Assembly: GCA_002343505.1 (NCBI GenBank)
Contig: DDQZ01000094.1
Span: forward strand, 110,976-129,001
Direction of reading: 5' to 3'
DNA length: 18,026 nt
Source of the DNA: Verrucomicrobiaceae bacterium UBA2429
GTDB lineage: Bacteria > Verrucomicrobiota > Verrucomicrobiia > Verrucomicrobiales > Verrucomicrobiaceae
Part shown: positions 3,384 through 17,829 of the stretch, one piece after another
Layout: each line of letters opens with the position of its first letter
Numbering within the stretch: position 1 is the stretch's first letter
Notes under the pieces: model-generated
Databases searched by the model: none
Seen by the model: the letters and a program-made list of their open reading frames with translations, nothing else
Told to the model about the DNA's origin: nothing
Translations under genes and position numbers: made by a program

Positions 3384-3392
3384 GGCGTCAAA

Positions 3393-3515
3393 TTTGGAGT
3401 GCGGCGGTTCCCGCCGCTTTGGATCGGGTGGTAAGGGGGCTGCGGGAGCTGGAGGGACTTTCGCGCGTCTGTCCGGCGGGCGAATCCAAAGCGCCGCGGA
3501 GCGGCGCACTCCAAA
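3393..3515 (+). repeat. Composite REP unit 2, upstream of the surface protein gene
   Basis: The left arm (3393-3424) has stem GCGGCGG/CCGCCGC. The 59-nt spacer (3425-3483) is of the common type, with GCTGCGGGAGCTGGAGGGAC and CTGTCCGGCGGGCGA. The right arm (3484-3515) has stem GCGCCGC/GCGGCGC. Both halves of the right stem differ from the usual GCGGTGC/GCACCGC, yet they remain fully paired. The unit abuts unit 3 directly at 3515/3516 and supplies the leader region of the minus-strand gene that starts at 3383. Confidence 0.85.
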
Positions 3516-3641
3516 TTTGGAGTGCTGCGCTCTGCGCAGCTTTGGATTGGTCTTGCGGGAAGTTTTGAGGAAAGATGACCGCGTGAAATCCGACGAACCC
3601 TCTCCTGAAATCCAAAGCGGTGCGGAGCACCGCACTCCAAA
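3516..3641 (+). repeat. Composite REP unit 3 carrying the start of the RAYT gene
   Basis: The left arm (3516-3547) has stem GCTGCGC/GCGCAGC with loop TCT, another fully compensated stem variant. The right arm (3610-3641) has stem GCGGTGC/GCACCGC with loop GGA. The spacer (3548-3609) is unlike that of the other units. It holds the ribosome binding site and GTG start of the transposase, so the right arm is translated as part of that protein (residues reading IQSGAEHRTPK). This may be the arrangement that links the RAYT gene to its repeats. Confidence 0.8.
3567..3574 (+). promoter_or_regulatory. Ribosome binding site for RAYT
   Basis: The sequence GAGGAAAG ends 8 nt before the GTG at 3583. It is the main reason for choosing that start over other in-frame positions. 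The ATG at 3575 is out of frame. Confidence 0.65.
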
Positions 3642-4179
3642 ATATTGGCCGCACGCTCCGGCGCATCGGCTGAGTGAAGGGGGGACCTTCATTGTGACGG
3701 CGGGGACTTATCGGAAGGAGCACTTCTTCGCGGGGGATGCGCGGCTGAAGGGACTGCATGACGGGCTTTTGAAGTATGCGGCGAAGTATGGCTGGCGGCT
3801 GGAGGCTTGGGCGGTGTTTCCGAATCATTACCACTTCGTGGCGCACTCGCCGGCGGGTGCGGAGGACGGGGCGGGGTCGCTGAGTGTGTTTCTGGCCGAC
3901 CTGCATCAAAACAGCGCGTCGTGGGTGAACGGGCTGGATGGCGCGGAGGGGCGGAAGGTGTGGCACAACTTCTGGGAGACGCGGCTGAGCTTTGAGAAGA
4001 GCTACTTCGCGCGGCTGAACTACGTGCATCAGAACGCGGTGAAGCACGGACTGGTGCCGGTGGCGAACCAGTATCGCTGGTGCAGCGCCGCGTGGTTCGA
4101 GCGCGAGGCGTCGCCCGCCATGGTGAAGACCATCTATGGATTCAAGACCGATCACGTGAAGGTGCTGGATGAGTTTTGA
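3583..4179 (+). CDS. REP-associated tyrosine transposase (RAYT, Y1_Tnp/IS200-like)
   Basis: This 198-residue protein belongs to the HUH single-strand endonuclease superfamily. RAYTs cut and join REP hairpins in other bacteria. The HUH motif is FPNHYHFV (H82, H84). The downstream segment LNYVHQNAVKHGLV, with Tyr147 as the probable catalytic tyrosine, matches the conserved RAYT YIHxNPVKxGLV block. An N-terminal GGTFIVTAGTYRKEHFF strand fits the family fold. The GTG start is chosen for the GAGGAAAG site and because the usual RAYT core begins shortly after it. Residues 9-20 are encoded by a REP arm. The stop codon is followed 3 nt later by unit 4. The gene lies alone on the plus strand between two minus-strand genes and has composite repeats on both sides. 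It is very likely the source of, or the enzyme acting on, the repeats in this window. It appears intact. Confidence 0.88.
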   Translation: MKSDEPSPEIQSGAEHRTPKYWPHAPAHRLSEGGTFIVTAGTYRKEHFFAGDARLKGLHDGLLKYAAKYGWRLEAWAVFPNHYHFVAHSPAGAEDGAGSLSVFLADLHQNSASWVNGLDGAEGRKVWHNFWETRLSFEKSYFARLNYVHQNAVKHGLVPVANQYRWCSAAWFEREASPAMVKTIYGFKTDHVKVLDEF

Positions 4180-4182
4180 GAA

Positions 4183-4305
4183 TTTTGAGTGCGGCGGTTT
4201 CCGCCGCTTTGGATCGGGGGGTGAGGGTGCTGCGGGAGTTGGCGGGACGTTCGTGCGTCCGTCCGGCGGGCGAATCCAAAGCGGTGCCGAGCACCGCAGT
4301 CCAAA
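4183..4305 (+). repeat. Composite REP unit 4 between converging RAYT and RHS genes
   Basis: The left arm (4183-4214) has TTTTGAGT instead of TTTGGAGT, which damages the GGAG head, and stem GCGGCGG/CCGCCGC. A 59-nt common-type spacer follows, then the right arm (4274-4305) with stem GCGGTGC/GCACCGC and a GCAGTCC variant tail. It fills most of the 145-bp gap between the RAYT stop (4179) and the RHS stop (4325). The two convergent genes share it as their 3' region. Confidence 0.85.
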
Positions 4306-4324
4306 AGGTGCTGCTGCTTATTCA

Positions 4325-4921
4325 TCACCATGGGAAGAAGAAGTTGAACCAGGAGCGGTTTTCCTTCTTCCGACGCTGCTCCTCTTCGTATCGTCGCTCT
4401 CTTTCCCTGGCCTCGTTCCACCGTTGCTCGGACTCAGCCTTTTCGGCATCCACATCGAATCCCAACACCCTGCGGATGTCATCAATCTCCGCCTGGATTC
4501 GTCCCACTGGATCATCGCCTGGCATCGTGAGTTGGTTACCCACATGATACAATTGCATCTGAAGCTCAGACAAACGTCGGTTTAACTCGCCGATCCGATC
4601 CTGCTCAGCATCGACAACATCCTCTTCAGCCTGCTTTACCGCAGCTTTTGCGATGGCTTTTCCAAGGCGATTCGCGGATTCGAAGATGGCCTCGCTAAAA
4701 TTGACGCCGGGGAAAAATTTGTTGCTGTCCGCCTCCCGACGTATTGCAATTGCAAACTGGTCAGAGGCTCCAAGGGCGGACAGGTCAAACTGAATGCCAA
4801 CCTGTTGTGCAAGTGAATTAACGACGACTCTAACGACGAATGAGTCTTTGATCTGTTGTTCTGTAAAGCCAATATCCTCGAGGAGCTCTCGACTTTGGGT
4901 GCCAAATCCAAACGCAATCGC
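4325..4921 (-). other. C-terminal tip domain of the RHS protein (lower GC, coiled-coil)
   Basis: This covers the 198 residues after the DPSGLRG boundary. The first about 90 residues are globular-looking. A charged helical region follows (from KQAEEDVVDAEQDRI through RERERRYEEEQRRKK) that should form a coiled coil. The protein ends in the aromatic tail WFNFFFPW. The DNA composition drops: a hand count gives 31/60 GC at 4561-4620 and 25/60 at 4801-4860, against 42/60 at 5041-5100 in the YD region. This is the usual signature of an exchangeable RHS/polymorphic-toxin tip. The tip family is not recognised, and toxicity is only inferred. Confidence 0.65.
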
Positions 4922-7900
4922 TCCCCTCAACCCACTCGGATCCACCACCGAGGTCACCATCCCTTCGACGAAGTGATACGGATTGGCGTGCTGGCCGTTT
5001 CTTCCCATCAGCGAGAGGTGGATGGGATCGCGGCTGAGGAAGCGGCCGGTGACGGGGTCGTAGTGGCGGGCGCGCATGTGGACGAGGTTGGCATCGGGAT
5101 CGTGGCGGACGCCGAGCTGGCCGGTGAAGGCGTAGATCTGGTCGCTGGCGCCGGTTTTTCCGAGCAGGCGGCCATGGCCGTCGTAGGCGTAGGCATCGGT
5201 GACGGCTCCGGCGGCGTCGGTGAGGAAGCGGGTTTCGCCGACTTTGCCGAAATGATAAAAGCGGACGGCGGGCGCGGGTGTGAGATCGATTTGATACAGC
5301 AGGCGGCCATCCGGCAGGGCGACGTAGAAGCGGGTGAAGGCGGCGCTTTTTCGTTCGGCCAAAATCGGCTGGCTGGCGACGGAGTAGGCGTAGCAGTAGT
5401 CGGTGGTCTGGCCGTTGAGGGTGCGGGAGGTGATCTGGCCTGTGGCGGTGTAGTCGTAGGCGAGGGTGCTGCCGCCATTGACGACGCCGATGAGGCGGTC
5501 GGCGCTGTCCCAGGTGAAGGTGCGGGTGCCGTCGGAGGTGGGGCGGCCACGGTCGTCATAGGTGTGCGTGGTGATCTGGTTGGCATCGTCAAAGGTCTGC
5601 GTCTCGACGCTGGCGCTGGTGAGGAAGGCACCGCCATCGACGGGGAAGCCGGTGTCGGTGATGGCGGTGGGTTCGTTGGCGGCGTTGTAGGTGAAGACGA
5701 TGGTGCCGAGCGCGACATGGGCGATCTGGCTGATCTTGCCATCCGCGTCGTAGGTGTGGGTGGTGCCGACGCCGTTCGAGCGGGTGATGCCGGTGAGCAG
5801 GCGGTCGGCGTCGTAGCTGAGATCAATCTGCGCGCCGGTGAGCGAATCGGTGACGCGGGTGACGAGGCCGCGCGCGTCGTAGGTGTAGGTGACGGTCATC
5901 TGCCCGGCGTAATCGAGCGTGGTGAGGCGGTTGCGCGAGTCGTGCGCGGCGGTGAAGGTCTGGCCGTGGAGCGTGGTGGTGGTCAAATTCCCGCGTGAGT
6001 CGTAGCCAATTTGGAGTGCGGCGCTCTGCGCCGCTTTGGATTCGGCGGATAGACGATCCAACGCATCAAACGCCATCGTCAGCGACAGCCCGTCCGAAAA
6101 ATTCCGCGCCGTCAGATGCGACTCCGCGTCATAAGCGCGCGTCTCGACGACGGTGTCGGGATGCGTGATCTGCGAAAGCCGCCCGCGCGAGTCGTAATCA
6201 TAGTCCCACGTTTTCGCGTTCGGATCGGTGACGGTGTCGAGGCGGCCCATGCCGGTGTAGGTGAGATTCCACTGTTTGCCGCGCACGTCGGTGAGCTTGG
6301 TGAGGCGGCCATTGTCGTCGTATTCATACTGCGTGCCGCCGGAGACGGGTTCGTCGCGGCCCGTGATGCGGCCCTCGCCATCGCGCTGAAGCGAGTGCTC
6401 GCGGGCGAGCGGATCGGTGGACTGCGTGGTGCGGGAAAAGGCGTCGAGAGCGCGCGTCGAGGTGTCGCCGCTGGGATCGGTGACGGAGGTGACGGCGCCG
6501 ATTTCATCCCGCCCGAGCGAGAGCGTGCGGCCTGCGGGCGTGGTGGTGGCGATGATATCCTCGACCTCGTCGCGCTGGAAGGTGGTGCGGTGGCCGAGCT
6601 GATCGATGACCGCCGACAGGGCGCGGCGGGCGTCGTATTCGAAGCGGATGGTGGAGCCATCGGGCAGCGTGATTTTCGAAACGGAATCGAAGTAGGGATG
6701 CTCGAAGGCGGTGGCGTTTCCCGCAGGATCGGTTGAGGTGGCGAGGCGGTCGAGCGCGTCGTAGGCGAAGGCGAACGGTTGCTCCAATGCGCCGCCGAAG
6801 TCGCGGGTGAGCGCGGTGAGGTTGCTGTTCGCGTCGTAGTCGAACTTCGTCACGGTGCCGCGCTCGTCGGTGCGCGTGGTGGTGCGGTCGAGCGCATCGT
6901 AGGTGTAGCCCATGACGCTGGTGTCGGGATGGGTGACCGAGGTGAGGCGGTTTAGCGTGTCGTAGCCGAAGGTGGTCACGCCGGTGTCGGCATCGGTGAG
7001 CGTCTGGAGATTCGCCGCCGCATCGTAGGTGAGGGTGGTGACGCCAGTCTCGGGGTTGGTGGAAGTGAGTGGCTGACCGCGCGTGTTGAAGGTGCGCGTG
7101 GTGGTGTCGCCATCGCGGTCAGTGCTGGAGGTGGGGTTTCCTTTCGTGTCGAAGACGAAGGCGGAGAACGTGCCATCGACGTGATCAATTCGGGTGAGGT
7201 CGAAGAAGGTCACGTTCACCGTCTCGGCGTTGGCGGGATTCGTGATCGTCTGGACGACAGGCGTGAAAGTGGCGGTCGAAGTGTCACCACGCGCATTGGT
7301 GATGCTTTTCACGAAGCCGCTGGCCTCGTCGTAGATGATTGAAGACCGTGCGCCATCGCGATCCACGGTCTTCGCAATGGCGCGGCGGTCGGGATCGGCC
7401 TCGAAGGTCATGTATTTGCCGGCTTCATCGAGCACGCCGGCCATGAGCGTGCCCTGCCCGCTGTGGAAAAAGCCGCGCCGCGAGCCGTCGGGATGCGTGA
7501 TGGCGCGGTGCCGGTCGCCGAGGCCGATGACGGGTGCCTCGCTGGCAAAGGTGAAGAGACGCCCGAGCGCGTCGGTCTGCGTGAGCACGGCGCGGTCGGT
7601 GAGCGTGGCAGGATAGGTCTGCGAGTAAGGCGTGTTGCCGCGCGGCATTTGCTTGGCGGAGATGCGGTTCGCGCCCTGGTAGGTGAAGGTGCAGACGCCG
7701 CTGATCGGATCGGTGATCGAGCGCAGCGTGACGAGCGGCGTGGCGTCGGCGGGCGGATTGTCGGCGGTGTTGTTCTCGTATTGGAACGTCCACGCACGGC
7801 CCGTGTGGTCGGTGACGCTGGTGAGCATCTTCACGCCGCCGATGGTCGTGTAACCAAACGTGAGCGAGCGCCCCAGCCCGTCGCTGACCGAGAGCGGCCC

Positions 7901-8557
7901 GGTGGTGGTGGCCTCGTCGTGATTCGCGGGCAGCGTGTAGGTGTGGGTGTTGCCATTGCGATCCATGACGTGCGTGCGCGGCGCGGCGTCTTCACCGGCG
8001 GCTTTCACGAACATATGCACGACGCCGCGCCCCGGCTCGCCGAGGTAGTAATGCGTGGCCGTCTCGATCAGCTCGTGACGCTCCGGTGTATCGGAGAGTT
8101 GCTCCCACAGCGAGGTCGTCGTGTTGAGCTGAAACGCGAGATCCTCGCCGAGTCCCATGCGCACAAAAGCCTGCGTGAACTGAAAGCCGGGGCCGAAATC
8201 AATGTTCACCCGCTGCACGAAAGCATGATGCGAGCGGCGGAACTTCCCTGCCATGCCGCCGAGCCCTTGCGGTGTGGTGTTGGCACCCGGCGCAGCCCCA
8301 CCGCCAGAGGAATACGCGATGCCAAACGAGAGCGGCAGCGGACCGCCGAGCGAGAGCAGCCGCTTGGTGAAATAGAACTCGCCTGTGGCCATGTTGACCG
8401 GATCGGCGGCGTCGAGCGTGGCGTTGATCAGGTTGACGGCATCGGAGCCGGTGACCCCGCCGCTTAAGCCGCTGGTGCTCCCGCTCGAAAAGTCGGGGAT
8501 GGGGTCGTTCGCCAGCAGCGGCGCGGCGAGGAGGAGGAGAATGGCGTGGATTTTCAT
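4325..8557 (-). CDS. Secreted RHS/YD-repeat protein with variable C-terminal tip
   Basis: This 1410-residue protein has a signal peptide (MKIHAILLLLAAPLLAND). An N-terminal region contains DPVNMATGEFYF, typical of the start of RHS/YD proteins. A long array of YD repeats of the form YDALDRL, YDSRGNL and YDADGK follows (about 250-1100). The RHS-associated core runs through YDPVTGRFLSRDP to the DPSGLRG boundary near residue 1210. The last 198 residues are an unrelated tip. The family forms hollow shells around C-terminal cargo and often delivers toxins, but no known toxin motif is seen here. The ATG at 8557 is preferred because of the signal peptide. The frame stays open further upstream only through repeat DNA. 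No Shine-Dalgarno is visible. A REP hairpin arm is inserted in frame at residues 839-850. No partner immunity gene follows. Confidence 0.88.
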   Translation of the reverse strand: MKIHAILLLLAAPLLANDPIPDFSSGSTSGLSGGVTGSDAVNLINATLDAADPVNMATGEFYFTKRLLSLGGPLPLSFGIAYSSGGGAAPGANTTPQGLGGMAGKFRRSHHAFVQRVNIDFGPGFQFTQAFVRMGLGEDLAFQLNTTTSLWEQLSDTPERHELIETATHYYLGEPGRGVVHMFVKAAGEDAAPRTHVMDRNGNTHTYTLPANHDEATTTGPLSVSDGLGRSLTFGYTTIGGVKMLTSVTDHTGRAWTFQYENNTADNPPADATPLVTLRSITDPISGVCTFTYQGANRISAKQMPRGNTPYSQTYPATLTDRAVLTQTDALGRLFTFASEAPVIGLGDRHRAITHPDGSRRGFFHSGQGTLMAGVLDEAGKYMTFEADPDRRAIAKTVDRDGARSSIIYDEASGFVKSITNARGDTSTATFTPVVQTITNPANAETVNVTFFDLTRIDHVDGTFSAFVFDTKGNPTSSTDRDGDTTTRTFNTRGQPLTSTNPETGVTTLTYDAAANLQTLTDADTGVTTFGYDTLNRLTSVTHPDTSVMGYTYDALDRTTTRTDERGTVTKFDYDANSNLTALTRDFGGALEQPFAFAYDALDRLATSTDPAGNATAFEHPYFDSVSKITLPDGSTIRFEYDARRALSAVIDQLGHRTTFQRDEVEDIIATTTPAGRTLSLGRDEIGAVTSVTDPSGDTSTRALDAFSRTTQSTDPLAREHSLQRDGEGRITGRDEPVSGGTQYEYDDNGRLTKLTDVRGKQWNLTYTGMGRLDTVTDPNAKTWDYDYDSRGRLSQITHPDTVVETRAYDAESHLTARNFSDGLSLTMAFDALDRLSAESKAAQSAALQIGYDSRGNLTTTTLHGQTFTAAHDSRNRLTTLDYAGQMTVTYTYDARGLVTRVTDSLTGAQIDLSYDADRLLTGITRSNGVGTTHTYDADGKISQIAHVALGTIVFTYNAANEPTAITDTGFPVDGGAFLTSASVETQTFDDANQITTHTYDDRGRPTSDGTRTFTWDSADRLIGVVNGGSTLAYDYTATGQITSRTLNGQTTDYCYAYSVASQPILAERKSAAFTRFYVALPDGRLLYQIDLTPAPAVRFYHFGKVGETRFLTDAAGAVTDAYAYDGHGRLLGKTGASDQIYAFTGQLGVRHDPDANLVHMRARHYDPVTGRFLSRDPIHLSLMGRNGQHANPYHFVEGMVTSVVDPSGLRGAIAFGFGTQSRELLEDIGFTEQQIKDSFVVRVVVNSLAQQVGIQFDLSALGASDQFAIAIRREADSNKFFPGVNFSEAIFESANRLGKAIAKAAVKQAEEDVVDAEQDRIGELNRRLSELQMQLYHVGNQLTMPGDDPVGRIQAEIDDIRRVLGFDVDAEKAESEQRWNEARERERRYEEEQRRKKENRSWFNFFFPW
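6010..6041 (+). repeat. Solo REP hairpin arm inside the RHS coding sequence
   Basis: A complete 32-nt arm has a TTTGGAGT head, stem GCGGCGC/GCGCCGC with loop TCT, and a TTTGGAT tail. It lies within an open reading frame and encodes ESKAAQSAALQI (residues 839-850) on the minus strand. It sits between YD-type sequence (FDALDRLSA) and the next repeat (GYDSRGNLT), so it replaced or extended an inter-repeat linker without breaking the frame. It is the only copy in the window that is far from a gene boundary. Confidence 0.85.
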
Positions 8558-8566
8558 GGCGTTAAA

Positions 8567-8689
8567 TGTGGAGTGCGGCGGTTCCCGCCGCTTTGGATCG
8601 GGCGGTGAAGGGGCCGCGAGGGCTGGAGGGATGCTCGTGCGTCTGTCCGGCGAACGAATCCAAAGCGGTGCGGAGCACCGCAGTCCAAG
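8567..8689 (+). repeat. Composite REP unit 5, upstream of the RHS gene
   Basis: The left arm (8567-8598) has head TGTGGAGT and stem GCGGCGG/CCGCCGC. The 59-nt spacer is of the common type, and the right arm (8658-8689) has stem GCGGTGC/GCACCGC with a GCAGTCC tail variant. It lies 9 bases upstream of the RHS start codon, the same placement that unit 2 has relative to the surface protein gene. It abuts unit 6. Confidence 0.85.
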
Positions 8690-8812
8690 TTCGGAGTGCG
8701 GCGGTTCCCGCCGCTTTGGATCGGGCGGTGAGTAAGCTGCGGGAGCTGGAGGGATGCTCGTGCGTCTGTCAGGCGAACGAATCCAAAGCGGTGCGGAGCA
8801 CCGCAGTCCAAT
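8690..8812 (+). repeat. Composite REP unit 6 in tandem with unit 5
   Basis: The left arm (8690-8721) has head TTCGGAGT. The 59-nt spacer differs from that of unit 5 at only a few positions and shares the AGGGATGCTCGTGCGTCTGT segment. The right arm (8781-8812) has the same GCAGTCC variant as unit 5. The close match between units 5 and 6 suggests a recent tandem duplication. Confidence 0.85.
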
Positions 8813-8901
8813 TGCCGCTTTGGATCGGGTGGTGAGGAGGACATCGGGGACGGAAGTGTGTGGGACGTTTGTGCGATTGTCCGGCTGACGAATCCAAGGC
8901 G
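8812..8901 (+). repeat. Degraded composite REP unit 7
   Basis: Only the 3' end of a left arm remains (TTGCCGCTTTGGAT, 8812-8825). A diverged spacer still starts CGGGTGGTGAGG and retains GTCCGGCTGACGA. It ends in a broken right arm that begins AATCCAAGGCG (8891-8901). Neither hairpin can form. It is a decaying member of the same array. Confidence 0.65.
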
Positions 8902-9097
8902 CCGGGACTTGCTGATGCCTGGCGGCGGCGGAACTTGTGCAGATTTTGATTTTTTTTCCTGCTCCATGACGCCCGCGATCAAAAGGCACGCCCGGAGTTT
9001 CGTCATGTCGGGGGAAACACCTACAGATGGATGAAGCTCGGTGTTTGACGAAGCGGCCAGCGCTCCGTTGGTTTGGGAGTACGTTTTGTTCCCACCC

Positions 9098-10978
9098 ATG
9101 ACACCGCACCGGGCAATCCTGCTGACGGGCACGACGATGCTGCTCGGCATCGCCGTGCTGGCGCTGCCGTGTCAGGCGCAGGAGATGCCGGACATGCCTG
9201 AGGACGCCTTTGCCGAGATGCCGGCCACCGCGCTCTTCCGCGAGGGCGACGATCCGGCCTGGGCCGCAAACGAACTGGACACGACGGGCTGGCATGAGGT
9301 GCGGCTGACCCTGCCGCCTGCCCGTCAGGGCGTGGCCTTCGACGCACACGTCGGCTGGTATCGCATCACGCTGCCGCCCATGCGGTATCCGAACGGAGGG
9401 GCGCTACAGGTGCAGTTCGACGGCATCGGCGGAGCGGTGGAGGCCTTCATGAAGGGCATGCCGCTGCGGGCGCGATATGGCGGCGTCGCACGCGTCACCC
9501 ACGGCGTGCCGGGGGAGCGCACCGTTTTCCCGCCGCCGGGTGCGCCCGCCGGTTTCACCATCAAGGGACCCCACTGGAACGAAAAGGGCAACAACACGCT
9601 CTGCCTGCGGGTGACACGCGCCCCGCGTGCGGGCGGCATCGAGGAAGGCGCCGCCCGGCTGGGGTTTGCGCTGTGGATGTCCGGCATCGTGCATCCGGAA
9701 AATCGCCGCCTCGTGGCATGGGAGTATGCAGCCCTCGCCGCGTGCTGCCTGGGCATGCTGACGGCCCTTTTGATGGCCTGGGGAGACCGGCGCGACGCCT
9801 GGCACCGGTGGAATGCAGTCCTCTTTTTCGCCATCGGGCTGGCGGTGCTGCTCGGCGGCTACTCGATCTTCTTCGATGCGAGGCTGACGCATGGCCTGAT
9901 GCGGCTGGGGTGGTTCAGCACGGCGTTGATTCCGGTTTGTCTGCTCTTCCTCGGCAAAAGCGCAGCCAGTGGGCCGTCGCCGGTCATTTCACGCGTGACG
10001 GTCGGCGTCATCGGTGTGGCGGGCGTGATGGCCGCGCTGCTGCTCCTGCTGGCGCGGGAGGTGACGACGCTCGTATGGGCGCACTGGATCACGGCCGCGG
10101 CCTTTCTATGGTCGGCGGTCTGCCTCGTCATTACCTGCCGCTTTCCCACACACCGGGTAGAGAAGGGGATCGGCCTTTTCCTCGCCACGACGGCGGTTCT
10201 TTCACTCGCCTGGGCGCTGCATCTCATCGCGGCACAGACTGGCCTCACACTCTTTTCGCGCACAGCGCTGCATGTGACGGTCACCTGCCACGCGATCGCC
10301 TTCTACGTGCTGCTCGTCGTGCGCCTGCACATTCTGCGGGAGTCCAGCCGACTGCTGCTGCGTCGCAATTTGGAAGCTCAGGAAGACGAGCGCAGGCGCA
10401 TCGCCATGGACCTGCATGACGGTGTGGGGCAGTCCATGCAGTCGCTGAAGCTCCGCCTGCAAATGGATGCGCAAAAAGCCGGGCGGGCGGAAGAATGCCA
10501 ACCGCAGATCGCGGCAGTCGATGCATGCATCCAGGAACTGCGCAACGTCGCCGCGCACCTCCGCCCCGTCTTCCTCGGCCGCCATGCACTGGCAGAGGCG
10601 CTGCGTGCGCTGTGCGAGCAGTATGCCGACGAGTCGGGAGCAAAGGTCCGCTTTGAAAGCAATGTCACGCGACCGGTGGAGGCACGGGCGGAGGAGCACA
10701 TCTTCCGCATCCTGCAGGAGGCGCTCACCAATGCCAGCCGTCACGGGAAGGCACAGCAGATCGAAGTGAGCCTGCACGAGAAGGACGGGCGGCTGGGCAT
10801 GATCGTGCGCGACGACGGTTGCGGCGCGAAAGCAACCGCTTCGTCCCGCGGCGGGCGCGGAGTTTTCAACATGCACGAGCGGGCGCATCTCCTCGGCGGA
10901 GATCTGGCTCTTGCCATTCGTTCTGACGGCGCCGAACTGAGCGTCACCGTCCCGTTTCCAGCCGCGCCTGTCACATGA
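9098..10978 (+). CDS. Histidine kinase with periplasmic sensor and 7TM region (HisKA_3/HATPase_c)
   Basis: This 626-residue sensor kinase is of the NarX/DesK type. A signal peptide (1-27) precedes a periplasmic domain (about 30-200) with a jelly-roll-like stretch (DTTGWHEVRLTLPP, VGWYRITLPP). Seven hydrophobic segments follow between about 205 and 413, as in 7TMR-DISM receptors. The dimerisation helix carries the phospho-acceptor His440 in RRIAMDLHDGVGQ. The ATPase domain shows the N box (EALTNASRHGKA, N545), the G1 box (DDGCGA, 572-577) and the G2 box (GGRGVFNM, 585-592). All catalytic boxes are present, so it should be active. The ATG at 9098 is chosen because the signal peptide begins there; a GTG at 9041 would add 19 residues without helping. 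Its stop overlaps the next gene by 4 bases, so kinase and regulator are coupled. The ligand is unknown. Confidence 0.92.
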   Translation: MTPHRAILLTGTTMLLGIAVLALPCQAQEMPDMPEDAFAEMPATALFREGDDPAWAANELDTTGWHEVRLTLPPARQGVAFDAHVGWYRITLPPMRYPNGGALQVQFDGIGGAVEAFMKGMPLRARYGGVARVTHGVPGERTVFPPPGAPAGFTIKGPHWNEKGNNTLCLRVTRAPRAGGIEEGAARLGFALWMSGIVHPENRRLVAWEYAALAACCLGMLTALLMAWGDRRDAWHRWNAVLFFAIGLAVLLGGYSIFFDARLTHGLMRLGWFSTALIPVCLLFLGKSAASGPSPVISRVTVGVIGVAGVMAALLLLLAREVTTLVWAHWITAAAFLWSAVCLVITCRFPTHRVEKGIGLFLATTAVLSLAWALHLIAAQTGLTLFSRTALHVTVTCHAIAFYVLLVVRLHILRESSRLLLRRNLEAQEDERRRIAMDLHDGVGQSMQSLKLRLQMDAQKAGRAEECQPQIAAVDACIQELRNVAAHLRPVFLGRHALAEALRALCEQYADESGAKVRFESNVTRPVEARAEEHIFRILQEALTNASRHGKAQQIEVSLHEKDGRLGMIVRDDGCGAKATASSRGGRGVFNMHERAHLLGGDLALAIRSDGAELSVTVPFPAAPVT

Positions 10979-11601
10979 CTTCACAAAACAACAGCCCCAT
11001 CAGCGTCGTCATCGTGGATGATCATGGCATGTTCTGCGAGGGCCTGGCCTCCATGCTCCGGCAGCACGAGGACTTTACCGTCCTCGCTGCCATGCAGGAC
11101 GGGCCGTCAGCGCTCCAATCATGCCGCGTCACTCCGCCTGACATTCTCATTGCCGATCTCGCCATGCCCGGCATGGACGGCCTGGAAACCATCCGCACCG
11201 CGCTTGCGGAGCGACTATGCAAATCCGCCGTGCTGCTGACCATGCACAAGCACGCCGTCATCGCCGAAGACGCCCGCCGCGCCGGAGCCGCCGGCTACAT
11301 CATCAAGGACGAGGCCTTTCACGAACTGGCGGACGCGCTGCGGGCCGTGGCCGCCGGGGAGGAGTTCGTCGAGCCCGCCAGCCTGCCGGACAACTCCGGT
11401 GCGACACCTGTGCTCAGTCCGCGGGAGAGGAGCATCCTCCTCCTCATCGCCCAGGGTCAGATCACCAAGGAGATCGCCGACAGCCTGAACCTCAGCGACA
11501 AAACGGTGGAGACTTTTCGAGGTCGCCTGATGAAAAAAACCGGTTCCCGCAATATGGCCGACCTTGTCCGATTCGCGCACGAGACCGGGCTCATGGCGTG
11601 A
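10975..11601 (+). CDS. NarL/LuxR-family response regulator
   Basis: This 208-residue partner of the kinase overlaps its stop codon at ATGA, which implies translational coupling. The receiver domain (about 9-125) has the acidic pair D15/D16, phospho-acceptor D61 in LIADLAMPG, the switch Thr89 and Lys111 in YIIKDEA. The C-terminal LuxR-type helix-turn-helix (about 145-205) reads LSPRERSILLLIAQG, then TKEIADSLNLSDKTVETFRG. On phosphorylation by the kinase it should bind DNA as a dimer. Target genes cannot be read from the window. The pair forms its own two-gene operon with REP units on both sides. The gene ends 2 bases before unit 8. Confidence 0.95.
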   Translation: MTSQNNSPISVVIVDDHGMFCEGLASMLRQHEDFTVLAAMQDGPSALQSCRVTPPDILIADLAMPGMDGLETIRTALAERLCKSAVLLTMHKHAVIAEDARRAGAAGYIIKDEAFHELADALRAVAAGEEFVEPASLPDNSGATPVLSPRERSILLLIAQGQITKEIADSLNLSDKTVETFRGRLMKKTGSRNMADLVRFAHETGLMA

Positions 11602-11707: not shown

Positions 11708-12571
11708 TCACGCAATTCCAAACTGAAAGGGATCAGCAGAGTCGAGGATCAATGTGGTCTCCGCCGTGATGAAGGCTTCTCCGGTGATCGTGGGGATGAT
11801 GCCGCTTTTGCTGTTTTGGTAGCTGCCTTCAAAAACACTGCCGAGGATGCTTTCCTGCCGCCACACCTGACCAGGGGCGAGTTTTCCATCGGCGGCGAGG
11901 CAGGCGAGCTTTGCGCTGGTTCCCGTGCCGCAGGGCGAGCGGTCGTATTCACCCCCAGGGCACAAAACAAAGTTCCGGCTGTGATTCGCGGCATTCTGCG
12001 GCGGACCAAAAAGCTCGACGTGATCGACTTCCGGGTATCCAGCGGCGCGCACGGCCTCGCGCATCGCCAGACTGGCCTGCGTGAGCTGATGCACGTTTTT
12101 CAGTGTGAGATCAAGGCTGTGATCGGCGACGAGAAAGAACCAGTTTCCTCCCCACGCGACATCTCCGGTGATTCCGCCGGCTTTCACGCCCTTCGCTTTG
12201 CGATAGGAGGGCACATTGCGAATGCTCACGCGGCCATCTTCATGCAGCATTGCCGTCACCACGCCCACGGGCGTCTCCACGCGATGCTCGCCTGCCGAAA
12301 TCCGTCCGAGATGCTTCAGCGTGGCGATGAGGCCGATCATGCCGTGCCCGCACATGCCGAGCAGGCCGGCGTTGTTGAAGAAAATGACTCCCGCCGCGCA
12401 GCTTGCGTCTTTCGGCTCCACCAGCAGCGCACCGACGATCACCTCATGCCCGCGCGGCTCGCAGATGATGGCGCGGCGATACGTTTCCAAGTTCTCCGCT
12501 GTCACGCCGCCAAGCACCGCACGCGTGGGCTCGCCACCGGTGTGGGAGTCAATGATGGGAATGCGGGTCAT
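11708..12571 (-). CDS. 4-hydroxyproline 2-epimerase (proline racemase family)
   Basis: This 287-residue cofactor-independent enzyme of the proline racemase fold should interconvert trans-4-hydroxy-L-proline and cis-4-hydroxy-D-proline, the first step of hydroxyproline breakdown. Diagnostic features are [11 protein letters not shown] near the N-terminus, the first catalytic cysteine C74 in NMCGHG-like GMCGHGMIG, and the second, C214, in [12 protein letters not shown], with D210 nearby. Two cysteines fit an epimerase or racemase rather than the Thr-containing 3-hydroxyproline dehydratases. It is about 20-25 residues shorter than typical family members (about 310), mainly in the loop after TRAVLGG. 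Proline racemase activity cannot be excluded. It is the last gene of the minus-strand operon, and its ATG overlaps the stop of the upstream sulfatase (ATGA). Confidence 0.87.
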
Positions 12572-12789
12572 GGAGCGGGGATGATGGCTTTCGACGTGCG
12601 ATCACCGATTTTGAAATGGCCGAGCGGTTGCTGTTTGCCATCGCGGATTTGCCAGACGGCACCCGGCCGTGTGGACTGGCGTTTCTGCCCCTTGGGCTTG
12701 ATCATTCCATAGGACTTGGGTTCGCCAGTGGGAGACATCCAGCACAGCTCGACGGGTTGTGTGTGCTGATTGATGAAGACGACATCGAA
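12568..12789 (-). other. VHL-beta-like C-terminal domain of the second sulfatase
   Basis: The domain covers residues about 490-562. It begins [17 protein letters not shown], which matches the strand pattern of the VHL beta domain. It then has [11 protein letters not shown], against WLNFDGEPQPY in human VHL, with W506 and Y516 at the spacing of W88 and Y98. A further 19 residues on is W535, as W117 is in VHL. T529 takes the place of Ser111 and A533 that of His115. The family assignment is by eye from memory of the human sequence. Confidence 0.65.
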
Positions 12790-14256
12790 GGTGCCGCCGT
12801 CCGGTTTCGAGGGAGGGGCGGAATCACGGGATGGATGCCATTTCAATTCTGGCAATGATGCCACGGGCACTTGCGGCACGGGGACGGGATTCTCAGGCGC
12901 AAGGGCGCGAAGCTCGGCAAGTTTGGCGGCGTGCGCGGGCATTGCGGCGAGGTTGGTCCATTCGTGAGGATCGTTCACGATGTCATAGAGTTCCTCATCG
13001 CCGTTGCGGTAGTGGATGTAGCGCCACGCCTTGGTGCTGATGGCGTATTCATCAGGCACGCCGAGCTGGGTGACAGCGGCATGCGGCCACGCGGCATCTG
13101 GATTCCGCAGCAGCGGCACCAGGCTGTTCCTGCTGATGCCTTGCGGTGCGGGCAGGCCGCAAAGATCGGTGACGGTGTGGAAAAGATCCGTGAGGCTCAC
13201 CGGTTGATCACAGATTGCGCCGGATTTTCCGCCGGGCACGCGAATCATCAGCGGCACGCGCGTGCAGATGCGCCAGCCGGTGTACTTCTGCCAGTGCTGC
13301 TTCTCGCCGAGATGCCAGCCGTGATCGCTCCACAGCACGACGATGGTGTTGTCGCGATACGGGCCGCTTTCGAGCGCATCGAGCACACGACCGAGCATCG
13401 CATCCGCGTAGTGAATGGAGGCGAGATAGGCCTGGATGGCGTGCTTCCACTGTCCCTGCTTCTGAATGTGCTCGAAGTAGCGGTTCGGGCCCATTTTTTG
13501 TCCCGAGGGCGGAAGATCGTCCAGATCATCCTCCTTGTAGCCGGGTCCGGGCTGAATGGATTCGAGCGGGAACGGTTTGAAATACTCCTTCGGCACAAAC
13601 CACGGCTCATGCGGCCGGTAGATGCCGCAGGCGAGGAAGAAGGGCTTGTCGTGCGGGCGTTGAAGCTGCCCGCCAATCCACTTTGTCACGCTCCAATCGC
13701 CGCCGCAGACTTCATCGCTCGCCTCCAACGCGGCCCAGTCGGTTTCCACATATTGCCAAGGACCACCCACAGGCAGGCTGATGGGACGATTTGGCGGATC
13801 GAAGGTCGGCGGGAACGGGTTCTCTTTTTCTTTGGCGGGGAAGTAGTCGTCCCACGAAGCGGCATCAATGAAGTAGTGCAGCAGCTTGCCGGAACCGGCG
13901 CTCCAGTAGCCGTGCCGGGAGAAGAACTTCGGCATGATCTCCGCATCCGGCAGCACATCGCGCATCTTCTGGCCGTTGTGATACACGCCCGAGCGATAGG
14001 GCGGAATGCCGGTGAGAATGGCCGTGCGCGACGGGTTGCACTGCGGCGCGGCGCAATGCGCGTTGGTGAAAAGCGTGCCGCTCTTCGCAAGGCGGTCGAA
14101 GTTCGGCGTCTTCGTCTGCGGATGACCGCCGAGGCAGCCGATCCAGTCGTTGAGATCGTCCACCGAGATGAAGAGGACGTTGGGTTTCTCAGATGCAGCG
14201 GCGCAGACCGACGAGGCAGCGACAAAGATTCCGAGGATGAAGCACAAGGTTTTCAT
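12568..14256 (-). CDS. Secreted formylglycine sulfatase with C-terminal VHL-beta-like domain
   Basis: This 562-residue type I sulfatase should hydrolyse sulfate esters outside the cytoplasm. It has a signal peptide ([20 protein letters not shown]), the metal-binding pair D33/D34 ([10 protein letters not shown]) and the formylglycine motif CNPSR with C73. Active-site blocks include [16 protein letters not shown] and [12 protein letters not shown], all typical of the family close to iduronate-2-sulfatase. Residues about 490-562 form a separate small beta domain like that of VHL. The ATG at 14256 is chosen for the signal peptide; it overlaps the stop of the upstream sulfatase by 4 bases. The gene is followed by the epimerase in another ATGA overlap. 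The formylglycine-generating enzyme needed for maturation is not in the window. The substrate is unknown. Confidence 0.9.
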
Positions 14257-14483
14257 GGTGCAGGAATGATGGCTTTCACAGGTTTGTCTGCGGTTCCATG
14301 GATCTGAAAATGACCGAGAGGTTTGTTGTTGGCATCTTTGATCACCCACACGGCGCCGCCGCTGCTGCGGATGCTGAAGGCATCTTTTGGTTCAAGCGTC
14401 TTGTAGTGCTTCTCGGCCCCTTGGGGGCTGATCCAGATGAGTTCCACAGCAGCCGTGCTCTGATTTTGAAAAGTGACGGCGAG
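14253..14483 (-). other. VHL-beta-like C-terminal domain of the first sulfatase
   Basis: The domain covers residues about 530-605, after a low-complexity Ala/Pro linker (ATMASAAAAPTSLPWHP). It shows LAVTFQNQSTAAVELIW, then WISPQGAEKHY. W546 and Y556 keep the VHL W88-Y98 spacing, S569 falls at the Ser111 position and W575 at the Trp117 position. A573 replaces His115. So four of the five classical hydroxyproline-pocket residues are retained, better than in its neighbour. Confidence 0.68.
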
Positions 14484-16070
14484 CTTCGGTCCTTTGGGTT
14501 CCGATTTCGGCAAGGCAGCGCCGGTGGCCGGATGCCATGGCAGCGATGTGGGCGCTGCGGCGGCGGAGGCCATTGTCGCGGGTTCCTGCCATTGAAAGGT
14601 CGGACGCGGCAGCGTCTTCCACATCTGCGCGCTGAGGCTGGCGAGAAGGTCGGCGTGTTCCGCCTTGGTGGCGATGTTCTCGTTTTCGTCGGGATCATTT
14701 TCGTGATCGTAGAGTTCTTGCGCGGTGATCTTCCGTGAGGAAAGCTCCAGCCACTCGATGTAGCGATAGCGTTCGGAGCGCATCGCATAGCCCATGTGGT
14801 GGCCATCCTTTTCACGACGGGGGAACTGGCTGAAGGCGGCGTCTTTGACCTTTGTGGCGGTTCCGTTAAGCAGCGGCTTGAGGCTGGTGCCTTCGAGCTT
14901 TTCAGGAACGGGCAGGCCGGCCAGATCGGCGAGCGTGGGATAAACGTCCACGAACTCGACGAGCGCATTCGACTTGGTGCCGTTCGCCTTGGCACCGGGC
15001 ATGCGGATCATCAGCGGCGCGCGTGTGTCGATCTCGTAGTTGGTCTGTTTGCACCAGCCGCCGTGCTCGCCGAGCTTCCAACCGTGGTCGCTCCACAGCA
15101 CGACGATCGTGTTGCCGGCGAGACCAAGGCGATCAAGCTCATCGAGCAATCGGCCGACTTGCGCGTCGATGTAGGACACCGCCGCGTAGTAGCCGTGCTT
15201 CAGTTCGCGCTGTTGCGCTTCCGAAAGCGGTCCCTCTCTCGGCCAGCGGGCGTCCGAGTAGTCCATGTAGTCGCGCAGCTCATAGAATCCGCCCTGGAAT
15301 TCGCCAAAGGCCATGCTTGGAGCGCCGTGGGGCAGGTGGTCGTTCGTCGCGAGCGGAATCTTCGAGCGGTCATAGAGATCCCAATACTTCCTCGGCACGA
15401 CGAACGGCAGATGCGGGCGGATGAAGCCTGCCGCGAGGAAAAAGGGCTGCTTTTCAGATGCGAGCCTGCGCATGGCGGTGACGGCCTGTTCTCCGATTGC
15501 GCCATCGAAGTGTTCCTCGTCAGGAATGTCGAGCACCTCAGTGGCCGCGGCGCGCATGCGTTCGATCCGAGCCTTTGGTTTGCCTTCGGCCCGCATTTGC
15601 TCGCGAAACTCCGCAAGCTTCCCGGTTGCCGCTTTAGACCATGATGGTTTTTCCGGCCACACATGCGGCTCGTCCCACGACACATTGTCCGGCCACGGAT
15701 TGTGGAAGATTTTGCCGAAGCCAAGCGTGTAGTAGCCGTGCTTGCGGAAATGCTGAGGAATCGTGACCGCGTCCGGCATGACGGAGCGCATTTCGGTCGA
15801 GAGATACCAGACCTTGGTCGAATCCGGCCGCATGCCAGTCATGAGCGAGACGCGCGAAGGATTGCAAACCGCCTGCTGGCAGTACGCGCGGCTGAAAAGC
15901 ACGCCGGAAGCCGCGAGGCGGTCGAGATTCGGCGAGATGACGTGCTCCACACCGTAGCAGCCGAGATCACAACGCATATCGTCCACGGCGATAAACAGCA
16001 CGTTCGGGCGTTCCGCCAAGGCGGAGAGCAACGGCAATCCAATGATGAGCGCTAAGAGCAGGTGTTTCAC
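14253..16070 (-). CDS. Iduronate-2-sulfatase-like secreted sulfatase with C-terminal VHL-beta-like domain
   Basis: This 605-residue formylglycine sulfatase has a signal peptide (MKHLLLALIIGLPLLSALA), metal ligands D30/D31 (FIAVDDMRCD) and C69 in the CNPSR motif to be oxidised to formylglycine. The blocks AYCQQAV, GFGKIFHN, FIRPHLPFVVP and WSDHGWKLGEHGGW are close to those of iduronate-2-sulfatases. Iduronate itself is not proven as substrate, since bacterial relatives act on several sulfated sugars. Residues about 530-605 are a VHL-beta-like module. The start is GTG at 16070, supported by the signal peptide. No good Shine-Dalgarno is seen and the lyase gene ends 30 bases upstream. Its stop overlaps the next sulfatase start (ATGA). 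Both sulfatases end in the identical residues KAIIPAP, pointing to tandem duplication. Confidence 0.9.
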   Translation of the reverse strand: MKHLLLALIIGLPLLSALAERPNVLFIAVDDMRCDLGCYGVEHVISPNLDRLAASGVLFSRAYCQQAVCNPSRVSLMTGMRPDSTKVWYLSTEMRSVMPDAVTIPQHFRKHGYYTLGFGKIFHNPWPDNVSWDEPHVWPEKPSWSKAATGKLAEFREQMRAEGKPKARIERMRAAATEVLDIPDEEHFDGAIGEQAVTAMRRLASEKQPFFLAAGFIRPHLPFVVPRKYWDLYDRSKIPLATNDHLPHGAPSMAFGEFQGGFYELRDYMDYSDARWPREGPLSEAQQRELKHGYYAAVSYIDAQVGRLLDELDRLGLAGNTIVVLWSDHGWKLGEHGGWCKQTNYEIDTRAPLMIRMPGAKANGTKSNALVEFVDVYPTLADLAGLPVPEKLEGTSLKPLLNGTATKVKDAAFSQFPRREKDGHHMGYAMRSERYRYIEWLELSSRKITAQELYDHENDPDENENIATKAEHADLLASLSAQMWKTLPRPTFQWQEPATMASAAAAPTSLPWHPATGAALPKSEPKGPKLAVTFQNQSTAAVELIWISPQGAEKHYKTLEPKDAFSIRSSGGAVWVIKDANNKPLGHFQIHGTADKPVKAIIPAP

Positions 16071-16100: not shown

Positions 16101-17003
16101 TCAAGCCGGCCTCTTCGCCAACGCATCACGGATGATGTTGAGCACCTGCTCGCGTTCAGCTCCGGCGAGGGGCAGGCGCGGCTCGCGCACCCATTCGTTG
16201 CCGAGGCCGGTCTCCTGGCAGAGCAGCTTGATGTACTGGACGAAGTGCAGGTGGGTGTCGAGCTTCATGAGCGGCTGGCTCCAGCGATAGAGCGCGCGGC
16301 ATTCGTCCCAGCGGCCGGCCTGGGCGAGGTCCCAGAGCTGCTGGTTTTCTTTCGGAAAGGCGATGCCGCTGCCACAGACCCAGCCGTCAATGCCGAGGAT
16401 GGCGGACTCCAGGAAGAGATCATCCACACCGGTGAAGATGCGGTAGCGGTCGCCTGCGAGATTGCGAAGTTCGGTGATGCGGCGGGTGTTGGCGCTGCTT
16501 TCCTTGATGGCGAGCAGGTTCGGGATGTCAGCAAGCTCGACGAACGTCTCCGGCGTCACATCGGTGTGATAGCCGACGGGGTTGTTGTAAAGCATCCAGG
16601 ACAGCGGTGTGGCGGCGGCGAGGGTGCGGAACCAGTGCTGCGTCTCGCGCGGGTCGGGCTTATAGACCATGGGCGGCATGACCATGAAACCGGCGGCGCC
16701 GAGCTTTTCGCAGTCGTGCAGGTAGCGGATGGCGGCCTGCGTGCTCATCTCCGCCACGCCGCAGACCACGGGCACGCGGCCAGCGGCCACAGCGAGGGCG
16801 TGTTTCACCACGGTGCGTTTTTCCTCGGGCAGAAGCGTCTGGTTTTCGCCGAGCGAGCCGCAGACGATAAGGGCGGAGACGCCGGACTCAATGAGCGCCT
16901 CCCAGTGACGGGCGCAGGCGGGAAGGTCCAGGCTTTGGTCCGGATGCATGTGGGTGACGACGGCGGGGAAGACGCCTGACCATTCGATGGAGGACTGGGA
17001 CAT
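16101..17003 (-). CDS. DHDPS/N-acetylneuraminate lyase family enzyme
   Basis: This 300-residue class I (Schiff-base) aldolase-fold enzyme is probably cytoplasmic. The Schiff-base lysine is K167 in LLAIKESS, and the catalytic tyrosine is Y139 in MLYNNPVGYH. The substrate loop reads CGSLGEN (48-54) instead of the GTTGE of true dihydrodipicolinate synthase. The family includes 4-hydroxy-2-oxoglutarate aldolase, pyrroline-4-hydroxy-2-carboxylate deaminase and sialic acid lyase. The hydroxyproline epimerase in the same operon favours one of the first two by context; sequence alone does not decide. The ATG at 17003 gives the usual family length. The frame extends 55 codons further, but that would overlap the divergent regulator. 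It is the first gene of the operon. No clear Shine-Dalgarno is visible. Confidence 0.85.
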   Translation of the reverse strand: MSQSSIEWSGVFPAVVTHMHPDQSLDLPACARHWEALIESGVSALIVCGSLGENQTLLPEEKRTVVKHALAVAAGRVPVVCGVAEMSTQAAIRYLHDCEKLGAAGFMVMPPMVYKPDPRETQHWFRTLAAATPLSWMLYNNPVGYHTDVTPETFVELADIPNLLAIKESSANTRRITELRNLAGDRYRIFTGVDDLFLESAILGIDGWVCGSGIAFPKENQQLWDLAQAGRWDECRALYRWSQPLMKLDTHLHFVQYIKLLCQETGLGNEWVREPRLPLAGAEREQVLNIIRDALAKRPA

Positions 17004-17047
17004 GCGCGCAGGGTGGCCGCCCGTCAGCGAGGGGTCTTGATTGCTTT

Positions 17048-17066
17048 TTGGCAGGACGGCTGCCAA
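17048..17066. promoter_or_regulatory. Palindrome in the divergent promoter region, candidate operator
   Basis: The sequence TTGGCAG, 5 nt, CTGCCAA is a perfect 7-bp inverted repeat. It lies in the 73-bp gap between the lyase start (17003, minus) and the regulator start (17077, plus). Its position suits a binding site for the adjacent AraC-type regulator or another dimeric factor. AraC proteins more often use direct repeats, so the binder is uncertain. Confidence 0.45.
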
Positions 17067-17076
17067 TTCAGGCAAA

Positions 17077-17829
17077 ATGACCGCGATGAATGATCCTTTT
17101 GCCGCGCATGAAGTCGCCGAGGCGCTCTTCGACGAGCTGCCGGACGTGGTCTTTTTCATCAAGGACACCTCCGGGCGCTACGCGCGCGTGAATCAGACGC
17201 TGGCGGACCGCTGCGCAGGCGGCGACAAGAAGCGCCTGCTCGGCAAACGCCCCGCCGAGGTCTTTCCCGCCGCGCTGGCGGCCGGTTACAGCCGCCAGGA
17301 TGAGCAGGTGCTAAGGACAGGCCGCACGGTGCGCGACCAGCTGGAGATGCACATCTACCCGCGCAGTGTGGCGGGATGGTGCCTGACCACGAAGCATGCC
17401 CTGCGCGACGCTCGGGGCCATGTCATCGGTGTGGCTGGCATTTCGCGGGACTTGAACGCGCCTGGGGACAAGGCGCCAGGATTCGCCGAGCTGTCCGCAG
17501 CGCTGCGCCGCATGCGCAGGGATTTTGCCACGAGCCTGCGCATTGAGGAAATCGCCAGGGAGGCGGGCATGAGCATGCATCAGTTTGAGCAGAAAATCCG
17601 GCGGCTTTTCCAGATGAGTCCGCTGCAGTTGCTGCACAAAATGCGACTCGACGAGGCGATGCGGCTGCTGCGTGAGACGGACAAAAGCCTGGGCGAGATC
17701 GCGCTTGAGACGGGCTGGTGCGACCAGAGCGCCTTCACCCGCCATTTCAGCCGCCACACGGGCATGTCGCCGGGAAGGTTTCGCGCTTTCGAGGCTGCGC
17801 GCGCCACCGGGAAGGCCGCGGCGGAATGA
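17077..17829 (+). CDS. PAS domain-containing AraC-family regulator
   Basis: This 250-residue transcription factor has an N-terminal PAS sensor (about 12-125; FDELPDVVFFIKDTSGRYARVN, GKRPAEVFP, HVIGVAGISRDL). The C-terminal AraC/XylS double helix-turn-helix (about 145-240) reads SLRIEEIAREAGMS, FQMSPLQLLHKMRLDEAMRLL, SLGEIALETGWCDQSAFTRHF and HTGMSPGRFR. The PAS domain takes the place of the usual cupin-type sugar pocket and could bind a small ligand. No heme or flavin motif is evident. It is divergent from the lyase-sulfatase-epimerase operon and is the likely activator of it. The ATG at 17077 is chosen; the ATG at 17086 is an equally possible start, and a TTG at 17041 would overlap the palindrome. 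Confidence 0.9.
   Translation: MTAMNDPFAAHEVAEALFDELPDVVFFIKDTSGRYARVNQTLADRCAGGDKKRLLGKRPAEVFPAALAAGYSRQDEQVLRTGRTVRDQLEMHIYPRSVAGWCLTTKHALRDARGHVIGVAGISRDLNAPGDKAPGFAELSAALRRMRRDFATSLRIEEIAREAGMSMHQFEQKIRRLFQMSPLQLLHKMRLDEAMRLLRETDKSLGEIALETGWCDQSAFTRHFSRHTGMSPGRFRAFEAARATGKAAAE

Follow-up and report, generated by a model that had tools for sequence, protein, structure and literature searches.

The window analyzed here, an 18,026-nucleotide stretch of the draft genome of Verrucomicrobiaceae bacterium UBA2429 (G000:C64:110976-129001), carries on its minus strand an operon in which two sulfatases, each ending in a module that resembles the beta domain of the human VHL protein, accompany a gene of the 4-hydroxyproline epimerase family. 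The genes are read in the order DHDPS-family gene, sulfatase B, sulfatase A, racemase-family gene, and 4-base overlaps join sulfatase B to sulfatase A and sulfatase A to the last gene. Sulfatase A (12568..14256, minus strand; 562 residues) matches the Pfam domains Sulfatase (E 4e-49) and SGSH_C, and sulfatase B (14253..16070, minus strand; 605 residues) matches Sulfatase (E 9e-47). Both combine the Sulfatase domain with the CxPxR motif of S1 sulfatases (CNPSR in each), and both have N-termini that, judged by eye, resemble a Sec signal. In a phmmer search of PDB chains, the nearest solved structures to sulfatase B were an arylsulfatase (6hhm, E 5e-93) and iduronate-2-sulfatase (5fql, E 2e-80). 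An earlier note on this DNA, written from the letters alone, had given correct coordinates for both sulfatases while omitting that they lie on the minus strand.

The racemase-family gene (11708..12571, minus strand; 287 residues) encodes a protein that reaches the Pfam Pro_racemase cut-off (E 6e-83), contains both Cys motifs (MCGHG and SPCGTG) and best matches 4-hydroxyproline epimerase models and solved structures of the proline racemase family. Its best NCBIfam model is 4-hydroxyproline epimerase, albeit at 369.5 bits, short of the equivalog cut-off of 442 bits. The DHDPS-family gene (16101..17168, minus strand) matches Pfam DHDPS (E 4e-55), its best NCBIfam model being dapA with a score below that model's cut-off. 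Its true start is probably further in, because the open reading frame (ORF) overlaps a divergent gene (17041..17829, plus strand, ORF as listed) for an AraC-type regulator with a PAS domain (Pfam HTH_18 and PAS_4), presumably the regulator of the operon. Homologues of this regulator are divergent from the DHDPS gene at four other loci (L066, L079, L080 and L183) and from the epimerase gene at two (L185 and L186). An Rfam scan of the window returned no matches.

VHL is known as a hydroxyproline (Hyp) reader in animal oxygen sensing, and the earlier note had proposed that both sulfatases end in domains of the same fold. The module of sulfatase A covers approximately residues 485-562 (12571..12804, minus strand) and that of sulfatase B approximately residues 525-605 (14256..14498, minus strand). 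A search with the Pfam VHL model (PF01847), which the note had suggested as a check, placed both proteins above the gathering score of 21 bits, A with 27.0 bits (E 4.5e-6) and B with 23.7 bits (E 5e-5). When the 88-residue C-termini were compared with PDB chains by phmmer, the alignments to human VHL were ungapped, as the note had described, and weak from a single sequence (best E 0.011 for B and 0.023 for A). A profile built from 51 bacterial domains reached human VHL at E 5e-12, the next chain, an unrelated one, appearing at 0.15, and a template-free fold match yielded the VHL beta-sandwich. By curated cut-off, profile search and fold match, the resemblance of the modules to VHL exceeds chance; homology and fold match thus bear out the VHL-like fold, and they indicate that the modules are real VHL beta domains, members of a bacterial family. 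The sulfatases stop at the equivalent of VHL residue 154, ahead of the alpha domain, for which no dedicated search was made.

The aromatic cage of VHL (Trp88, Tyr98 and Trp117) is present with the VHL spacing in both sulfatases. The W-10-Y-19-W arrangement that the note had pointed out is found as W506, Y516 and W535 in A, and as W546, Y556 and W575 in B. The note was equally accurate about position 111, occupied by Thr in A (T529) and Ser in B (S569), and about His115, whose equivalent is absent from both proteins and replaced by Ala in each (A533 and A573).

The genome, a 90% complete draft, contains three Pfam VHL matches. The third (G000:C64:110150-110287) belongs to a protein of 734 residues that combines DPPIV_N and Peptidase_S9 domains and is encoded roughly 335 bases beyond the left edge of the window, some 12 kb from the epimerase gene. 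This VHL-peptidase, whose named database relatives belong to Prosthecobacter and Verrucomicrobiaceae, has the same cage at the same spacing, and it carries the equivalents of Trp88, Tyr98, Thr111, His115 and Trp117. The peptidase gene is separated from the cluster by genes for a protein with RHS repeats, a DUF11/beta-helix protein and a two-component pair, so that the cluster seems to have been split in this genome. The large RHS-repeat protein and the DUF11/beta-helix protein fall within positions 153-9349 of the window; frames around them contain recurring SAALQIW/RRFPPLWI-like stretches, perhaps an insertion with a dispersed repeat. The two-component pair (9041-11601), a HisKA_3 sensor kinase and a LuxR-type response regulator, converges on the epimerase gene. 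To the right of the window (L005:12343-18001) there are two further sulfatase-like genes without a VHL match, adjoined by a long gene with a CxxCH motif of the c-type-cytochrome kind.

The Pfam VHL model has a match in 43 of 56 relatives, counting G000, and, in a draw across the phylum, in 26 of 383 genomes; the two sets together hold 66 genomes with a match. When ten typical hosts were scanned with Pfam, eight had the DPPIV_N/Peptidase_S9 architecture (one of them truncated ahead of S9), the other two being sulfatases; a batch chosen for odd appearance included LRR, protein kinase, MACPF and small VHL-only hosts. DPP-IV-like S9 peptidases are the commonest hosts in the sets examined, and the idea that sulfatases are the main carriers was rejected, since they account for 11 of the 84 distinct Pfam-derived domains (60 are in peptidases and 13 in other proteins). 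Searches of the regions with the two modules agree in tendency, the peptidase module retrieving 155 protein clusters at E <= 0.001 among 202 candidates and the sulfatase B module 2 clusters among 89; these are no census, because both depend on shared 5-residue words.

The pattern [ERD]QHT[FY]xGHV was found at 181 loci when 84,980 species genomes were scanned for it. The best 80 of the 181 can each be aligned with the VHL-peptidase along 240-878 residues; their titles name Planctomycetota, Verrucomicrobiota, Chthonomonas and Abditibacteriaceae (both Armatimonadota), Poribacteria, Sumerlaeota and others. With the VHL part masked, all 75 distinct domains from these best 80 loci were still classed as peptidase.

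Several unusual hosts were also recorded. One 1359-residue frame (L068:3-4079, G282:C2) has a MACPF domain at its C-terminus and, in addition, five VHL-like repeats. The domain occurs in an LRR protein (L015:1438-2310) and is terminal in a protein kinase with an NPCBM domain (L069:1951-4854), and two loci (L040 and L059) encode small proteins of about 130 residues with a VHL domain.

According to an excerpt of the structural literature (PMC9528729), the Hyp pocket of VHL consists of Trp88, Tyr98, His110, Ser111, His115 and Trp117; the hydroxyl of Hyp is hydrogen-bonded by Ser111 and His115, and His110 contacts the ligand through its backbone carbonyl. We ranked by relative entropy the 52 columns that correspond to human VHL 73-124. 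In a set of 51 domains (A1), the top six were W117, W88, N78, Y98, H115 and S111, i.e., every named pocket side chain except His110 was included, and the hypergeometric chance of finding five named side chains in the top six of 52 is 2.3e-6. Set A1 leaves out ten of the 61 non-redundant domains (five repeats of L068, one repeat of L028, and the domains of L046, L052, L053 and the 315-residue protein of L067), and its conservation is raised because these ten are divergent. With all 61 domains, the five pocket columns ranked 1, 2, 4, 5 and 8; the top-six residues of A1 lay in the top eight, joined by F76 and G114, and His115 and Ser/Thr111 went from 5th and 6th to 4th and 8th. The ranking is therefore weaker than first computed, and our main claim does not rest on it alone. 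Position 110 is variable in the bacterial domains (S, H or N), and position 109 is mostly Gln, as compared with Ile in human VHL.

The pocket differs by host. Among the 60 distinct peptidase domains from Pfam-derived loci, Trp88, Thr/Ser111 and His115 are present in all 60, Trp117 in 59 and Tyr98 in 58. The 11 distinct sulfatase domains all have Trp88, Ser/Thr111 and Trp117, and eight have Tyr98, but His115 is found in two and the complete pocket in none. In the 13 domains from other hosts the pocket is often incomplete, with His115 in five. Nine of the 11 sulfatase domains have Ala at position 115, and every one of the nine has Arg at 110 or 112, a substitution seen in 0 of 59 peptidase domains (one peptidase domain and one other domain were dropped from this count for want of Trp at the site). 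Tyr98 is replaced by Arg or Phe in the two sulfatase domains with His115, and by His in one of the Ala115 domains. The loss of His115 and the gain of Arg look like a concerted change; the nine domains are not nine independent events, because they perhaps represent two lineages (A-type and B-type). Consequently, the claim that the hydroxyproline pocket is preserved must be divided. In bacterial VHL domains generally, the pocket side chains do rank with the best conserved positions, and the S9-peptidase domains retain His115. The sulfatase branch, however, does not have the pocket whole: in most of its members His115 has been lost and an adjacent Arg gained, and so retention in the sulfatase modules does not hold as it was worded.

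The link with the epimerase, on which the earlier note had remarked, is real and was found again in relatives. In two of them (G015 and G004), sulfatase B, sulfatase A, the epimerase and the VHL-peptidase follow one another head to tail. Among epimerase-bearing relatives, the epimerase gene lies within 10 kb of 23 of 34 VHL-peptidases, versus 2 of 21 VHL-less DPP-IV genes, both of which stand beside a VHL-peptidase (Fisher p = 2e-5, a value that overstates the evidence because related genomes are treated as independent). This count excludes non-peptidase VHL rows (two in G000 and one each in G001, G004, G030 and G031) and DPP matches below about 100 bits. Of the 66 VHL genomes, 42 have a full-length epimerase-family gene, and in 28 of these the gene and a VHL domain are no more than 10 kb apart; fragments (G001, G016, G044, G265) and matches below the cut-off (e.g., G061, G099, G364, G412) were counted as none.

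Outside the genus, G265 has in a row genes for a DHDPS homologue, aminopeptidase P, the epimerase, the VHL-peptidase, a POT-family peptide transporter and a D-amino-acid oxidase family enzyme. In G037 the row comprises DHDPS, a short HExxH protein without a Pfam match, the epimerase, the VHL-peptidase and a D-amino-acid oxidase family enzyme, and in G291 the D-amino-acid oxidase family enzyme, the epimerase, DHDPS, an aldehyde dehydrogenase and the VHL-peptidase. A DUF885 protein takes the place of the sulfatases in G012, as does a protein of similar sequence in G027. An excerpt of PMC4113996 outlines the 4-hydroxyproline pathway, which comprises, besides the 4-hydroxyproline epimerase, an oxidase from the D-amino-acid oxidase superfamily, a DHDPS-superfamily deaminase and an aldehyde dehydrogenase.

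For comparison, we inspected 20 epimerase neighborhoods from VHL-free genomes of the phylum, taken out of 38 VHL-free genomes that have a full-length racemase gene and mostly the best scorers from the order and class of the window. A DHDPS homologue was present in 15 of the 20 (once at 26% identity), a DPP-IV homologue in none. In the 383-genome draw, a full-length racemase-family gene (rows over about 180 bits, relatedness uncontrolled) occurred in 8 of 26 genomes with VHL and in 38 of 357 without, a weak co-occurrence at the level of the whole phylum; the epimerase-VHL link is lineage-limited. In genomes without a Pfam VHL match, three AraC-type regulators encoded near a 4-hydroxyproline epimerase (L162:4555-5760, L163:723-1985 and L166:14012-15259) terminate in a stretch with weak likeness to VHL (local profile E ~1e-4) that keeps VELFW and has lost Tyr98 and GHVW, perhaps a relic of a sensor.

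The peptidase itself departs from canonical DPP-IV. In PmDAP IV, a double-Glu motif clamps the substrate N-terminus and is essential for exopeptidase activity, as reported in an excerpt of PMC5807507. Canonical DPP-IV paralogues show this motif as DWVNEEEL, the strict form being present in 4 of 4 of them and in 0 of 132 VHL-peptidases, from six of which, as aligned, the clamp segment is missing. A looser pattern matched 5 of the 132, four of them no more than 3 residues behind the end of the VHL domain, and we took these matches as chance; a still looser V.EE pattern occurs in 65, most commonly in VVEET-like contexts on a propeller strand that aligns elsewhere. The GxSxGG nucleophile motif is present in 126 of 132, some frames being cut. 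Lacking the clamp, the VHL-peptidase is unlikely to be a dipeptidyl peptidase in the strict sense.

We considered and rejected the idea that the VHL domain replaces the clamp. Eight additional S9 genes were compared. Four of them (L207, L208, L209 and L210) are without the clamp pattern and without a convincing VHL domain (best local E 0.04), so clamp loss is not tied to VHL. As for the others, L212 is without VHL and has a WVYGEE variant of the clamp that falls outside the strict pattern; the clamp is missing from L213, which has VHL, and from L206, whose VHL is degenerate; and the frame of L211 is broken and uninformative for this comparison. The clamp argument came out slightly weakened, and our main claim does not rest on the clamp alone. 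The VHL domain of the peptidase lies between the first propeller-like segment and the remainder, ahead of the propeller match. Since the stretch between blades 1 and 2 of PmDAP IV bears a substrate-binding Arg (excerpt of PMC5807507), a role of VHL in substrate binding is reasonable, the alignment being uncertain there.

Homology, fold, pocket side-chain conservation and operon linkage are matters of observation; the explanation that we consider probable, though far from certain, is that they reflect a lineage-specific system for feeding on Hyp-containing peptides or glycopeptides. Its members would be the VHL-peptidase, the two sulfatases, the 4-hydroxyproline epimerase and the DHDPS-family deaminase, with the D-amino-acid oxidase family enzyme, the peptide transporter and other peptidases as further members in relatives. 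Most likely, the VHL domain of the peptidase would hold partly degraded proteins by their Hyp residues, close to the active site; the peptides set free would be taken up and their hydroxyproline catabolized. The sulfatases would desulfate the same class of substrates, on which their modules may serve to keep them. Judging from the pocket residues, the peptidase domain is the better candidate for a hydroxyproline reader, whereas the modules of the sulfatases may have a substituted hydroxyproline as their ligand, or may have lost binding; the targeting of these modules to hydroxyproline-rich proteins that the earlier note envisaged is plausible. The rebuilt pocket (His115 to Ala, Arg at 110/112) might accept a substituted, anionic Hyp, such as one bearing sulfated sugars in algal hydroxyproline-rich glycoproteins, or another proline-like ligand. 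An excerpt of PMC9818292 describes the O-linked sugars of Volvox pherophorins as mainly attached to hydroxyproline and highly sulfated. Such glycans would explain the presence of sulfatases and hydroxyproline genes in one operon, and could also explain why a sulfatase module traded His115, which meets the hydroxyl, for space and Arg.

A number of observations weigh against this proposal. No full-length epimerase-family gene is found in 24 of the 66 VHL genomes, and of the 80 broad VHL-peptidase loci one has an epimerase in its flank (7 kb or less). The evidence for the oxidase, the transporter and the aldehyde dehydrogenase comes from the clusters of relatives. By plain Shannon entropy, which gives rare residues no advantage, unlike relative entropy, Y98 falls outside the top ten of the 61-domain alignment and H115 is tenth (W117, W88 and S111 are also in the top ten). 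The pocket conservation has an ascertainment bias, because the domains were found with a VHL model that favors pocket columns. The sulfatase domains may not bind Hyp, because the residue that hydrogen-bonds its hydroxyl in VHL is lost in nine of 11. Finally, a VHL-like insert missed by Pfam, in a relative of the VHL-peptidase (L206, G029:C3:19500-24500) whose genome has no epimerase match, lacks the equivalents of Tyr98 and His115.

Among the alternatives, the strongest, which we nevertheless deem unlikely, is that the VHL fold is merely a structural or docking beta-sandwich, whose Trp, Tyr and His are kept for folding or for an enzyme interface, with no proline-like ligand. The pocket side chains are buried (PMC9528729, in the excerpted part) and some may therefore be kept for folding; stand-alone, LRR-linked and kinase-linked copies exist; and most of the broad VHL-peptidase loci have no hydroxyproline gene in the flank. 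However, the residues that meet the hydroxyl, His115 and Ser/Thr111, rank high in set A1 and among all 61 domains and are both kept in 60 of 60 peptidase domains, whose hosts have peptidase relatives with a P1 preference for Pro or Ala (excerpt of PMC5807507). For the sulfatases, there is a somewhat smaller chance that the module, merely descended from a VHL domain, binds carbohydrate or sulfate. This would suit the Arg that accompanies every Ala115, as well as the sulfated glycans on which sulfatases act, iduronate-2-sulfatase being among the nearest solved relatives, but not the persistence of Trp88, Trp117 and Ser/Thr111 in all 11 domains and of Tyr98 in eight. Least probable of all is a plain proline, polyproline or other proline-like ligand, with hydroxyl recognition lost together with His115 in the sulfatases: the frequent Ala115 and the kinship of the main host with DPP-IV would fit, but the epimerase, DHDPS-family and D-amino-acid oxidase-family neighbors point to 4-hydroxyproline, and the hydroxyl-binding pair is intact in the peptidases.

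Beyond the feeding system that we favor, a broader and distinctly more tentative view is that the VHL fold has long served bacteria for the recognition of Hyp outside the cell, and that animal VHL shares this ancestry. S9 peptidases with intact pockets from Verrucomicrobiota, Planctomycetota and other phyla would then handle hydroxyproline-rich proteins, and the operon sulfatases would have borrowed the module and rebuilt its pocket for sulfated or glycosylated Hyp. A family of bacterial DPP-IV-like peptidases that carries the VHL pocket and occurs in clusters for the use of hydroxyproline would be an independent test of the purpose of the fold and a candidate origin for the key property of VHL; it would also supply natural hydroxyproline-binding modules usable as reagents, and hint at bacterial breakdown of algal or plant hydroxyproline-rich glycoproteins, or of collagen. 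In the open-access literature, a scope with most subscription papers outside it, PMC9002001 alone among the matches listed is centered on a bacterial VHL domain, and none of these matches connects bacterial VHL domains with peptidases, sulfatases or the use of hydroxyproline. As far as these searches show, the combination of an intact VHL pocket, an S9 peptidase host and a hydroxyproline cluster is new, as is the rebuilt pocket in sulfatases.

The protein treated in PMC9002001, a hypothetical protein from Litorilituus, is likewise bacterial, described as secreted and endowed with a VHL domain; the main text of that paper, which discusses tumor suppression, contains neither 'peptidase' nor 'sulfatase' and mentions hydroxyproline once, in connection with HIF. 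In human pVHL, a hydroxyproline reader of the CUL2 E3 ligase, the beta domain is followed by an alpha domain that binds elongin C, whereas the sulfatases end, at the equivalent of VHL residue 154, before the position of that domain. Moreover, the bacterial hosts are enzymes with signal-like N-termini, position 109 is mostly Gln rather than Ile, and the sulfatase modules are without His115 and have an added Arg. The VHL-peptidase shares with bacterial DPP-IV (PmDAP IV, PMC5807507) the DPPIV_N and S9 hydrolase domains and GxSxGG, and differs from it by the added VHL domain and the lack of the strict double-Glu clamp. Similarly, the operon sulfatases have the Sulfatase and SGSH_C domains and the CxPxR motif of iduronate-2-sulfatase and S1 arylsulfatases, and are set apart by the extra C-terminal VHL module. 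Finally, the gene cluster resembles the 4-hydroxyproline catabolic clusters described in the excerpt of PMC4113996 in its epimerase and DHDPS superfamily member (and, in relatives, its oxidase and aldehyde dehydrogenase); what it adds is a peptidase and sulfatases that bear VHL, as well as aminopeptidase P or a DUF885 protein.

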